DNA of 64,000 nt. It comes from Ponticaulis sp. GTDB lineage: Bacteria; Pseudomonadota; Alphaproteobacteria; Caulobacterales; Hyphomonadaceae. The notes below the pieces were generated by a model, which was not told the DNA's origin, did not search any database, and was given only the letters and a program-made list of their open reading frames with translations. A program made the translations under genes and the position numbers. The number at the start of each line of letters is the position of its first letter. Position 1 is the first letter of the stretch. Of this stretch, positions 14,413 through 19,033 are shown in pieces. The stretch lies in the NCBI GenBank assembly GCA_002723155.1, contig PBNO01000015.1:124001-188000 (forward strand), read 5' to 3'.

Positions 14413-15357
14413 ATGCGCCCTGCCATTCTCATCCACGGTCCGACCGCCAGCGGCAAGACCCAAATTTCAATCGACGTCGCAAAACGTCTCGATGGCGAGA
14501 TCGTGAATGCTGATTCGATGCAGGTGTACAAAGGATTGCGGGTAATTACAGCCCAGCCATCCGACGAAGAAATGTCGCAGGCGCCACATCATTTATTCGG
14601 ATATCGCGACCCGGCTGATGCGGGCTCCGCAGGAAGCTGGCTGAAAGATGCCAAATCCGTCATTCGCGGCATTCAGATGCGTGGACGCGTACCGATCATT
14701 ATCGGCGGCACAGGGCTTCACCTTCTTGCGCTGGTGAAAGGCCTGTCGGAAATCCCTCCGATTCCCGATGAAGTGCGTTCTCAGGTTCGCACCCTGGTTC
14801 AAGCCATCGGCACTGACGAAGCTCACGCGCGCCTGACAGAGATTGATCCCGACGCGGCTTCCAAAATCAAACCGAATGACCGCCAACGCATCATGCGCGG
14901 TCTTGAGGTGCACACAGCCACCGGAAAGCCACTCTCAAGCTTTCAGGGCGACCGTACCCCGCCGATTCTTAGCCCGGGCGAATGGGTAGGCGTCGCCCTC
15001 ACCCCGCCGCGCGCGAAACTTTATGCCCGTATTGACCGTCGTTTTGCTGGAATGCTGATGGAAGGCGCTATGGATGAAGCGCGTGCGCTGGCTGCACGCG
15101 ACCTTGATCCGTCACTTCCGGCCATGAAAGCACACGGAATGCCATGGCTTCTCGCCTATCTGCGCGGCGAGCTCAGCTCTGATATTGCAGCAGAATATGC
15201 CAAACGTGACACGCGGCGTTATGCAAAACGCCAATTCACCTGGATCTCTCATCAGTTTCCGTTCTGGCCAAGAATCCCGTCTCCGGAGCCTGAAGTGCGA
15301 CAAAAGGTTATTTGTGCCCTTTTTAAAGAGATTGACGCGGCTTTTTCGAAAAGATAA
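14413..15357 (+). CDS. miaA: tRNA dimethylallyltransferase
   Basis: MiaA adds a dimethylallyl group to A37 of tRNAs that read codons beginning with U. The 314-residue protein has the P-loop GPTASGKT (8-15), NADSMQVYKGL for substrate binding, IIGGTGLHL, and DRQRIMRGLEV in the helical tRNA-binding part. The C-terminal KRDTRRYAKRQFTW is typical. The last codons hold the promoter proposed for the downstream ilv leader. miaA next to ilvB is a recurring order in alphaproteobacteria as far as I recall. Confidence 0.96.
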   Translation: MRPAILIHGPTASGKTQISIDVAKRLDGEIVNADSMQVYKGLRVITAQPSDEEMSQAPHHLFGYRDPADAGSAGSWLKDAKSVIRGIQMRGRVPIIIGGTGLHLLALVKGLSEIPPIPDEVRSQVRTLVQAIGTDEAHARLTEIDPDAASKIKPNDRQRIMRGLEVHTATGKPLSSFQGDRTPPILSPGEWVGVALTPPRAKLYARIDRRFAGMLMEGAMDEARALAARDLDPSLPAMKAHGMPWLLAYLRGELSSDIAAEYAKRDTRRYAKRQFTWISHQFPFWPRIPSPEPEVRQKVICALFKEIDAAFSKR

Positions 15358-15360
15358 CCT
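15332..15360 (+). promoter_or_regulatory. Probable promoter of the ilv leader and operon
   Basis: TTGACG (15332-15337) and TAACCT (15355-15360) are separated by exactly 17 bases, a good housekeeping-sigma arrangement. TTGACGC followed after 14 bases by GATAACCT also resembles the Caulobacter-type pattern. It overlaps the end of miaA and would start transcription just before the leader peptide at 15386. No experimental support. Confidence 0.5.
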
Positions 15361-15385
15361 GCATTCGAAGATTAAGAGGAAAAAG

Positions 15386-15433
15386 ATGAGCAAACTGCTC
15401 GTAGTCGTGAGAAAGCGCCTGTCGGTGAAGTGA
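15386..15433 (+). CDS. ilv operon leader peptide (15 residues, Leu/Val-rich)
   Basis: A 15-codon ORF reading MSKLLVVVRKRLSVK, preceded by a good site (agagga) at the right distance. Seven of 15 residues are Leu or Val, with Leu-Leu-Val-Val-Val in a block. It is followed by a pause-type hairpin overlapping its stop and then an intrinsic terminator just before ilvB. That is the arrangement of amino-acid attenuation: slow translation at Leu/Val codons when these amino acids are scarce would prevent the terminator. The peptide itself has no other expected role. Confidence 0.85.
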   Translation: MSKLLVVVRKRLSVK

Positions 15434-15455
15434 GAGACCACTTCAGCGCAGGCGC
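15415..15455 (+). promoter_or_regulatory. Pause-type hairpin of the ilv attenuator
   Basis: Two stacked stems: GCGCCTG (15415-15421) with CAGGCGC (15449-15455), and TGAAGTG (15426-15432) with CACTTCA (15439-15445), loop AGAGAC. It covers the last codons and the stop of the leader peptide, as the 1:2 hairpin does in classical attenuators. A ribosome stalled on the Leu/Val block would cover its 5' side. A possible antiterminator pairs 15434-15443 with 15465-15472, with bulges; this last pairing is weak. Confidence 0.65.
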
Positions 15456-15465
15456 GGTTATGCAA

Positions 15466-15491
15466 GGGGCTCAGCGGGCCCCTTTATTTTT
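15466..15491 (+). terminator. ilv attenuator terminator
   Basis: GGGGCTC (15466-15472) pairs with GGGCCCC (15476-15482; one G-U pair) around the loop AGC and is followed by TTTATTTTT. This is an intrinsic terminator placed after the leader peptide and about 45 bases before the ilvB start, where only regulated read-through makes sense. Confidence 0.82.
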
Positions 15492-15533
15492 GGTTGGAAT
15501 TCTGGCTCGTGCCAAAATGCAGGAATTGAACAA

Positions 15534-17306
15534 ATGGACACGCAAGAAAAGATCGCAGATACGGATTTGACCATGACGGGTGCAGAGATCGTCGTGCGCG
15601 CTCTGTGCGATCAGGGTGTGGATACGCTATTCGGTTATCCGGGCGGCGCGGTCCTTCCTATTTACGACGCATTGTTCACCACACCGGAACTTCATCACAT
15701 CCTCGTTCGCCATGAACAAGGCGCTGGCCATGCGGCTGAAGGCTATGCCCGCTCGACCGGCAAACCGGGCGTTGCCCTGGTTACGTCAGGCCCGGGCGCG
15801 ACCAATATGGTGACGCCAATTGCGGATGCGATGATGGATTCCATCCCGATGGTTGTCATCACAGGTCAGGTTCCAAGCCACCTCATCGGCACTGACGCGT
15901 TCCAGGAATGCGACACGGTTGGCATTACGCGTTGCTGCGCCAAGCACAACTATCTTGTTCGCGATGTAAACGACCTTGCGCGCATCATGCATGAGGCATT
16001 CCTTATCGCCACAACGGGCCGCCCGGGCCCGGTTGTTATCGATATTCCTAAGGATATTCAGTTCTCTAAGGGCACTTATAAAGGTCCTGAAGGAACACAA
16101 CACAAAACCTATCATCCGGCATCTGAGCCGCATGAGGCCGGTATCGAAGCTGCTCTCGAACTGATGCGCAATGCCCGTCGCCCAATCTTCTACACAGGCG
16201 GCGGCATCATCAATTCCGGAACTGAGGCAAGCGCTGCTCTGCGTGCGCTGGTTTCTGAAACGAACTTCCCGATCACATCCACCCTGATGGGACTGGGTTG
16301 CTATCCGGCATCAGGCAGCAACTGGCTCGGAATGGTTGGGATGCATGGCGCGTATGAAGCAAACCACGCCATGCATGATTGTGACGTCATGATCTGCCTT
16401 GGCGCACGCTTTGACGATCGCGTGACGGGACGCCTCGATGCGTTCTCACCAAACTCGAAGAAAATCCACGTCGATATTGATCCATCTTCCATCAACAAGA
16501 CGGTTCGCGTTGACGTTCCGATCATTGCCGATGCTGGCAAAGCCATCAATGCACTGCTCGAAGGTTGGCGCCGCGAACAGCACCCGCGCAATGATCTCAG
16601 CGAGTGGTGGACGCAGATCGACGAGTGGCGCGCGCGGAAAGGCTTCGCTTATGAGAAGCAGGAAGAGCAGATCAAACCGCAATACGCGATCGAGCGCCTG
16701 TACGAGCTGACAAAGAACCGTGACACCTACATCACGACAGAAGTTGGCCAGCACCAGATGTGGGCCGCACAGCATTACCATTTTGAAGAGCCAAACCGTT
16801 GGATGACATCAGGCGGCCTCGGCACAATGGGCTACGGCCTGCCAGCAGCGCTCGGCGTTCAGGCTGCCCACAAGGACGCGCTGGTTATCGACATTGCAGG
16901 TGAAGCCTCCATTCAGATGTGCATGCAGGAGCTGTCCACCGCCGTTCAGTTCAACCTGCCGATCAAGATCTTCATTCTGAACAATGAGTGGATGGGCATG
17001 GTCCGCCAGTGGCAGCAACTGCTGCACGGAGAGCGCTATTCACACTCTTACAGCGACAGCCTGCCTGATTTTGTAGCATTGGCGAAAGCCTATGGCGGTC
17101 ACGGCATTCAATGTCGTAATCCGGCAGACCTTGATGCAGCCATCGAAGAGATGATCGCATATGATGGTCCGGTACTCTTTGACTGCCTTGTCACCAAGGA
17201 TGAGAACTGCTTCCCGATGATCCCATCAGGTGCTGCGCACAATGAAATGATCCTTGGCGAAATCACCGGCGACGAAATCGACGAGTCCGGCAAGGTTCTG
17301 GTTTAA
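15534..17306 (+). CDS. ilvB: Acetolactate synthase, large (catalytic) subunit
   Basis: This ThDP enzyme makes acetolactate or acetohydroxybutyrate, the first common step to valine, leucine and isoleucine. The 590-residue protein has the catalytic glutamate in VRHEQGAGHAAEGYAR (E61), the SGPGATN loop, a middle FAD-binding domain, and a C-terminal ThDP domain with AGEASIQMCMQEL ending in LNNEWMGMVRQWQ. The usual GDG start of the ThDP motif reads GEA here. ATG 15534 follows the attenuator. ilvN starts 59 bases downstream and ilvC follows, so the first two pathway steps share one operon. Confidence 0.97.
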   Translation: MDTQEKIADTDLTMTGAEIVVRALCDQGVDTLFGYPGGAVLPIYDALFTTPELHHILVRHEQGAGHAAEGYARSTGKPGVALVTSGPGATNMVTPIADAMMDSIPMVVITGQVPSHLIGTDAFQECDTVGITRCCAKHNYLVRDVNDLARIMHEAFLIATTGRPGPVVIDIPKDIQFSKGTYKGPEGTQHKTYHPASEPHEAGIEAALELMRNARRPIFYTGGGIINSGTEASAALRALVSETNFPITSTLMGLGCYPASGSNWLGMVGMHGAYEANHAMHDCDVMICLGARFDDRVTGRLDAFSPNSKKIHVDIDPSSINKTVRVDVPIIADAGKAINALLEGWRREQHPRNDLSEWWTQIDEWRARKGFAYEKQEEQIKPQYAIERLYELTKNRDTYITTEVGQHQMWAAQHYHFEEPNRWMTSGGLGTMGYGLPAALGVQAAHKDALVIDIAGEASIQMCMQELSTAVQFNLPIKIFILNNEWMGMVRQWQQLLHGERYSHSYSDSLPDFVALAKAYGGHGIQCRNPADLDAAIEEMIAYDGPVLFDCLVTKDENCFPMIPSGAAHNEMILGEITGDEIDESGKVLV

Positions 17307-17365: not shown

Positions 17366-17932
17366 GTGACGCAAGCTAACACTCCATCTTCGCCACAGAG
17401 CGCATATTTCATTGATGACCATTCAGAGGATGCCATCGTCCGCCGCACATTGGCGGCGATAGTAGACAACGAGCCGGGCGTTCTGGCCCGTGTGGTAGGC
17501 CTGTTCTCTGCGCGCGGCTACAATATTGAAAGCCTGACCGTGGCCGAGGTGGATCATAAAGCCCACCAGTCACGCATCACCATTGTAACGAGCGGTACAG
17601 TTCAGATTATCGCGCAGATCAAAGCTCAGCTTGAACGTCTGGTGCCGGTTGCCCGTGTGGTGGATATCACCACTTCACCTGCTGGTCTCGAACGCGAGCT
17701 TGCGCTTATCAAGGTCAGCGCGGCTACAGGCTCGGACGAGCGCGTCGAGGCGATGCGACTGTCTGAAATTTTCCGCGCACGCGTACTCGATGTCACGCTG
17801 GAAAGCTTCATCTTTGAAGTGACTGGCGGGTCGTCAAAAATTGATCAGTTCATTGAACTGATGGAGCCACTTGGCCTGATTCAGGTCTCAAGAACGGGCG
17901 TTCTGAGTATTCAGCGCGGCCTTCCCGAATAA
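17366..17932 (+). CDS. ilvN: Acetolactate synthase, small (regulatory) subunit
   Basis: The 188-residue regulatory subunit binds valine for feedback inhibition and activates the large subunit. An N-terminal ACT domain begins at RRTLAAIVDNEPGVLARVVGLFSARGYNIESLTV, and the C-terminal ALS_SS_C domain follows (ERELALIKVSA to the end). About 28 residues precede the ACT domain, longer than in E. coli IlvH. The start is GTG at 17366 with caggaat upstream. It belongs to the ilvB-ilvN-ilvC operon. Confidence 0.95.
   Translation: MTQANTPSSPQSAYFIDDHSEDAIVRRTLAAIVDNEPGVLARVVGLFSARGYNIESLTVAEVDHKAHQSRITIVTSGTVQIIAQIKAQLERLVPVARVVDITTSPAGLERELALIKVSAATGSDERVEAMRLSEIFRARVLDVTLESFIFEVTGGSSKIDQFIELMEPLGLIQVSRTGVLSIQRGLPE

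Positions 17933-17962: not shown

Positions 17963-19033
<1,071 letters not shown>

Follow-up and report, generated by a model that had tools for sequence, protein, structure and literature searches.

The region ahead of ilvB in a 64,000-nt stretch of Ponticaulis sp. DNA (contig PBNO01000015.1, positions 124,001 to 188,000; the window in what follows, with positions counted from its first nucleotide) very probably carries a ribosome-mediated transcription attenuator of the ilvB-ilvN-ilvC operon, the counterpart of the Caulobacter ilvBN attenuator. Four features by which a branched-chain amino acid attenuator is recognized can be read in the sequence: a leader with cognate codons, a promoter upstream of it, a pause hairpin overlapping the leader and a terminator ahead of ilvB (Table 1). 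A preliminary description of the window, made from its letters only, had proposed a Leu/Val leader-peptide attenuator composed of a promoter TTGACG-N17-TAACCT, a 15-residue leader with Leu-Leu-Val-Val-Val, a hairpin over the leader stop codon and an intrinsic terminator ahead of ilvB. Each of these parts is seen in the sequence, and leader, control codons, hairpin, terminator and promoter are conserved in related loci.

Conservation of the ilvB leader

The comparison comprised the best 80 of 592 confirmed loci, together with 30 loci from 50 matching genomes among 61 more; the window's own locus (L082) is one of those 30. In an automatic search, at least three consecutive Ile, Leu or Val codons in a short open reading frame (ORF), followed by a terminator, were found in 89 of 104 distinct ilvB upstream regions, which include close relatives, with identical leaders counted once and rows that are not independent. 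The background was 6 of 448 regions upstream of other ORFs of at least 200 aa in the same loci, these being mechanical ORFs and not annotated genes. With at least four consecutive codons, 71 of the ilvB upstream regions were retained versus three of the others. No single locus was removed by hand for this comparison; upstream regions shorter than 420 nt were excluded, as were identical ones and the window copy.

As for the promoter, a TTGAC motif lies 35-63 nt ahead of the leader start in all 85 distinct leaders kept, versus 62 of 1700 random 60-mers. Eight loci with a wrong or doubtful choice of leader or terminator (L014, L034, L037, L040, L055, L063, L066 and L071) had been dropped by hand before this count and the codon counts given below. 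The window copy was also dropped from both, the identical leader L002 representing it, and the antiterminator tests were additionally made without L048 (84 leaders).

For the pause hairpin, the support comes from covariation. When 38 Hyphomonadaceae leaders were aligned, the hairpins did not fall into register, and a subset of 13 leaders that align without large gaps was chosen instead. In these relatives, 9 of the 17 pairs in the equivalent of the pause hairpin are changed on both sides. Over the whole structure, 93.2% of the cells are paired, compared with 31-55% (maximum 55.1%) for slid structures, and 27 cells are doubly changed versus 9.5 in shuffles, a number reached in none of 500. Furthermore, the segment 15360-15500 of the window folds at -59.4 kcal/mol (z -5.3), a value matched by none of 200 shuffles. 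The comparison supports the promoter, the leader, its control codons, the hairpin and the terminator, as read from the sequence. A further helix (helix 1, columns 1-6/71-76 of alignment A1; 87.2% of the cells paired) connects the region of the leader start codon with the 3' flank of the pause hairpin in leaders of the Hyphomonas type.

A leader was not found at seven of the compared loci (L012, L026, L031, L036, L043, L061 and L074), two of which, L012 and L074, are represented with hardly any upstream sequence. In L026, L031 and L036, the gene immediately ahead of ilvB is ilvC (tblastn), with no leader found between them; these lineages hence depart from the others in gene order as well as in the attenuator.

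Table 1. Features of the ilvB attenuator region and of the genes that follow it (window positions).
Feature	Position	Strand	Description	Basis
Putative promoter	15332..15360	+	-35 TTGACG 15332-15337, 17-nt spacer, -10 TAACCT 15355-15360	Read from sequence
Leader ORF	15386..15433	+	15 codons and stop, MSKLLVVVRKRLSVK	Sequence reading and relatives
Control codons	15395..15409	+	CTG CTC GTA GTC GTG (Leu-Leu-Val-Val-Val)	Sequence and comparison
Predicted pause hairpin (segments 1:2)	15415..15455	+	Outer stem GCGCCTG/CAGGCGC, inner stem around the leader stop codon	Folding and covariation
Predicted intrinsic terminator	15464..15491	+	Stem 15464-15484 and T-rich tract to 15491	Scan, folding, comparison
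ilvB	15534..17306	+	Acetolactate synthase large subunit	NF006581, 1087 bits (cut-off 974)
ilvN	17366..17932	+	Acetolactate synthase small subunit	NF008864, 205.6 bits (cut-off 119)
ilvC	18008..19033	+	Ketol-acid reductoisomerase, class I size (341 aa)	NF004017, 553 bits (cut-off 336)

The promoter overlaps the 3' end of miaA (14413-15357), whose stop codon (15355-15357) is at the same time the first half of the -10 hexamer. An AAGAGG at 15374-15379 precedes the leader ATG at 15386 by 6 nt, and 42 nt separate the end of the T-rich tract (15491) from the ilvB start (15534). The identities of ilvB, ilvN and ilvC were confirmed with NCBIfam models; among named entries, the IlvB protein is closest to those of metagenome-assembled genomes of Hyphomonadaceae (99%) and Ponticaulis (87%), which makes Ponticaulis the probable genus. 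A miaA gene no more than 1.5 kb upstream of the ilvB match is seen at 76 of the 109 related loci.

The unit had also been presented as a compact case, on account of its short peptide and of the class I ilvC in the same operon. This view is not supported: the retained leaders are 9-22 residues long, many of them below 15, and at 26 of the 109 related loci ilvC follows the ilvB match at a distance of no more than 1.5 kb, a count limited by short flanks. The window unit is ordinary. It adds one more genus to a known regulatory system, and the value lies more in the comparison than in this single case.

Control codons and mode of action

In the control runs of the 85 leaders there are 162 Val, 106 Leu and 78 Ile residues, and codon usage is strongly skewed relative to the long ORFs in the same loci. 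GTA represents 111 of the 162 Val codons (69%), compared with 6.8% in the long ORFs, and it is present in the control run of 80 leaders; in the remainder of the leaders, it accounts for 3 of 25 Val codons. For Leu, CTC and CTT together provide 96 of the 106 codons (91%, versus 44% in the long ORFs), and CTG provides 6 (versus 41%). The base that follows GTA is variable (C 63, G 29, A 16, T 3), which argues against a fixed nucleotide motif, although shared descent keeps the sequences from counting as independent. In the window, the GTA skew is weak, with one of three control Val codons compared with 27 of the 215 found in eight of its genes, and the control run of the genus relative L085 is without GTA.

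In the passages of PMC1183508 that bear on this point, the idea is put forward that attenuator codons are chosen for starvation-sensitive isoacceptors of transfer RNA (tRNA). The skew towards GTA and CTC/CTT fits this idea of selective charging as presented there, and the ilvB leaders may offer a natural test of it.

Within the genus, five sequences were compared. Their Val codons vary at third positions and one of the sequences carries an in-frame insertion of 3 nt, both as expected of a translated control run. Val is the firmest control residue, and relatives also use Ile.

Transcription and translation of the leader, stalling on it and read-through beyond it would presumably proceed as follows. 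As long as Val and Leu tRNAs are charged, the leading ribosome would reach the stop codon, and the pause hairpin and the terminator would form. Termination near 15490 would then release an RNA of about 125 nt, counted from the start expected from the -10 hexamer. When these tRNAs are scarce, the ribosome would stall in CTG CTC GTA GTC GTG. With a stall at the last control codon and an assumed footprint reaching 10-12 nt beyond that codon, its leading edge would come to lie at about 15420 and obstruct the base of the pause hairpin; a larger share of the transcripts would then run on into ilvB.

The intrinsic terminator of the enterobacterial ilvBN and ilvGMEDA attenuators is governed by ribosomes that stall at codons for branched-chain amino acids. 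The unit described here appears to share this plan of branched-chain codon stalling and intrinsic terminator, but an antiterminator was not detected in this genus. Closer to Ponticaulis, Vitreschak et al. (2004) reportedly predict ilvIH attenuation across the class. An alphaproteobacterial "ilvB leader peptide" is called previously described in a passage of PMC1273637 that cites the same work. For Caulobacter ilvBN, attenuation via tandem Ile and Val codons is stated in PMC4117421, in a passage citing Tarleton, Malakooti and Ely 1994. According to that passage, the ilvBN (ilvIH) attenuator of Caulobacter crescentus has the same gene, tandem branched-chain codons and a rho-independent terminator, like the window unit. 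Matching leaders were identified in the Caulobacter loci of the comparison set. These are, for example, MRKTMIVLMERPFAG (Ile-Val-Leu), whereas the leaders of this genus carry Leu-Leu-Val-Val-Val, without Ile.

Difficulties and the antiterminator question

Several observations weigh against attenuation as described above. The generic promoter scan made no call at TTGACG-N17-TAACCT, and the generic terminator scan found 2 terminator-like sites versus 1.4 in shuffles. By itself, the site is hence weak in generic scans, and the weight of the case rests on conservation. Moreover, the Leu and Val codons expected to be kept in relatives are not all kept: the first Leu codon, CTG, is replaced by ATG or AAG in two genus relatives. 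The compensating changes expected in the stems were likewise found in part, in the pause hairpin and not in the terminator helix, where no pair is changed on both sides among the 13 leaders. In the same leaders, further pair types do not exceed shuffles (31 versus 29.7; 165 of 500 as high). With a stall at GTA (15401-15403), the pause hairpin would stay wholly or almost wholly free.

To the same side belongs the antiterminator, which had been proposed tentatively. Over the 84 leaders, the best duplex between the freed RNA and the 5' arm of the terminator equals that of shuffles (mean z 0.01); the duplex test ignores internal folding, and a general signal is absent there too. With the ribosome placed on the last control codon, the partition-function gain is 2.97 kcal/mol versus 4.04 in shuffled sequences, and 2.37 versus 4.86 kcal/mol for L002, which is identical to the window over the stretch; the shuffled gain tends to be inflated here, as shuffling of segment 2 breaks its hairpin. 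As modelled, antiterminator pairing is not supported in this genus, nor generally over the 84 leaders.

In the duplex test, seven leaders fall below z -2, namely those of the Caulobacter loci L028, L033 and L042, plus L046, L051, L069 and L073. Only three leaders lie above z 1.5 in the partition-function test, and all are from Bosea (L060, L069 and L073). Their strong predicted antiterminator joins the stop-codon region with the 5' arm of the terminator; the gain amounts to 9.5 to 13.4 kcal/mol and falls to 0.6-3.2 kcal/mol with the ribosome at the stop codon. By the same test, this pairing was not seen in L059 and L064, two of the five Bosea loci. For L028, L033 and L042, the partition-function gain is about 0.7 kcal/mol versus 1.9-2.2 in shuffles, without any signal.

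Within the attenuation model, there would be either a short kinetic antiterminator or control by other means. The former supposes a true 2:3 antiterminator that is present but missed, being short or kinetically formed. This is possible, though on balance less likely than not. In the genus, the stop-codon region and the 5' arm of the terminator do pair weakly, at -5.7 to -8.8 kcal/mol by duplex, and the seven leaders below z -2 as well as the behavior of the three Bosea leaders with the ribosome at the stop codon point in this direction. However, the pairing in the genus is no better than shuffled (z -0.2 to +1.5) and would have to compete with an inner hairpin worth about 8 kcal/mol, calculated as the difference of two folds. 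The Caulobacter signal, for its part, is gone in the partition-function test, and two of five Bosea loci are without the pairing.

That control does without any antiterminator seems rather unlikely; the stalled ribosome would then weaken the terminator by acting on RNA polymerase, through its pausing or coupling, or on the state of the pause hairpin. Such control would be consistent with the wide conservation of leader, pause hairpin and terminator next to a general antiterminator pairing that was not found. Yet the argument is drawn only from this negative, and equilibrium folding with a simple footprint can miss co-transcriptional structures. Some clades, moreover, do have the pairing.

Relation to RF02502 and to transporter genes

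Over the interval of the attenuator, the window gives a full-length match to the Rfam family RF02502 (Atu_C8) at 23.3 bits (cut-off 50; E 0.012 for that stretch). No RF02502 match was obtained in the window's own genome at E 1, and none of the Rfam leader families reached the cut-off over the interval. The window unit is related to RF02502 by gene position and plan, and is not a filed member. At the ilvB leader, the family exceeds its cut-off in 8 of 18 ilvB loci picked from the 80, including Mesorhizobium, Rhizobium and Devosia. In one order, matches at E 1e-4 were obtained in 66 of 150 genomes and exceeded the cut-off in 22 of these; of the 30 RF02502 loci fetched in that order (L137-L166), 29 are directly upstream of ilvB, and two later loci likewise. 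A class-wide search yielded 15 of 289 genomes at E 0.01. Below the cut-off, ilvB was found at only two (L113 and L114) of 18 loci; hence, such scores were not taken as evidence. A weak match of the interval to BjrC68 (RF02353) was traced in 150 genomes, with ilvB at 0 of 12 fetched loci (tblastn), and was dropped; another one to IMES-5 (E 0.58) was not used.

RF02502 is typed by Rfam as a small RNA (sRNA) gene, whereas the window unit is read as an ilvB attenuator. The comparison suggests that the "Atu_C8 sRNA" marks the ilvB attenuator leader in the loci examined, from Rhizobiales and one further order. This would give a functional identity to a family that has the status of an sRNA in Rfam and serves as a benchmark for sRNAs. 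A literature search, supplements not covered, did not find the identity of RF02502 with the ilvB leader, and the family appears in the sRNA benchmark list in the part of PMC5913331 concerned. Passages of PMC3738593 regard three sRNAs from an earlier Agrobacterium survey, not named there, as likely leaders in 5' untranslated regions, so the identity may be partly known.

It is very unlikely that the main product is a trans-acting sRNA, as Rfam files the Rhizobiales Atu_C8, with the control of ilvB being secondary. The length of the terminated RNA is near the 122 positions of RF02502, and the tryptophan attenuator RNA of Sinorhizobium, rnTrpL, is described in passages of PMC10117765 and PMC7298713 as a dual-function sRNA whose leader peptide is itself functional. 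Against this stand the position of all but one of the 30 fetched loci directly upstream of ilvB and the amino-acid control run kept by the RNA, which would be needless for a purely trans role. Finally, a chance arrangement of the miaA end, a miaA terminator and a random small ORF can be dismissed: a lone terminator-like site is not rare, but the counts for leader, terminator and TTGAC refute this reading at the level of sequence comparison.

Besides the putative attenuator of ilvB, a similar unit is found ahead of another type of gene. In a second order, RF02502 exceeds the cut-off in 6 of 36 genomes, and a transporter gene is next in all six (L112 and L131-L135). L141, the one exception among the 30 loci above and likewise over the RF02502 cut-off, also precedes a transporter gene; the same genome has a second copy before ilvB. 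All seven transporters (L112, L131-L135 and L141/L181) pass the NCBIfam cut-off of TIGR00710, the Bcr/CflA family of the major facilitator superfamily. The copies preceding a transporter gene, where read, have a Val/Ile leader, a hairpin and a terminator, as in the ilvB-type attenuator. From this position, a branched-chain-related substrate or control may be supposed for the Bcr/CflA transporter, which would possibly stand under the control of branched-chain amino acids.

A wider reading, at present speculative and on the whole doubtful, would regard the alphaproteobacterial ilvB leaders as one ancient unit, working in most clades without a conserved antiterminator, that senses the charging of particular isoacceptors (for Val codon GUA and Leu codons CUC/CUU) and not of those for the commonest codons. 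Its RNA would be the one catalogued as Atu_C8, and it would have been recruited before the Bcr/CflA transporter. If true, this predicts a branched-chain-related substrate or control for the transporter of the Bcr/CflA type.

Elsewhere in the window, the Rfam scan at the gathering threshold identified one tRNA and two transfer-messenger RNA models on one gene. The latter is a permuted transfer-messenger RNA gene of the alphaproteobacterial type, located at 2102-2460 on the minus strand.

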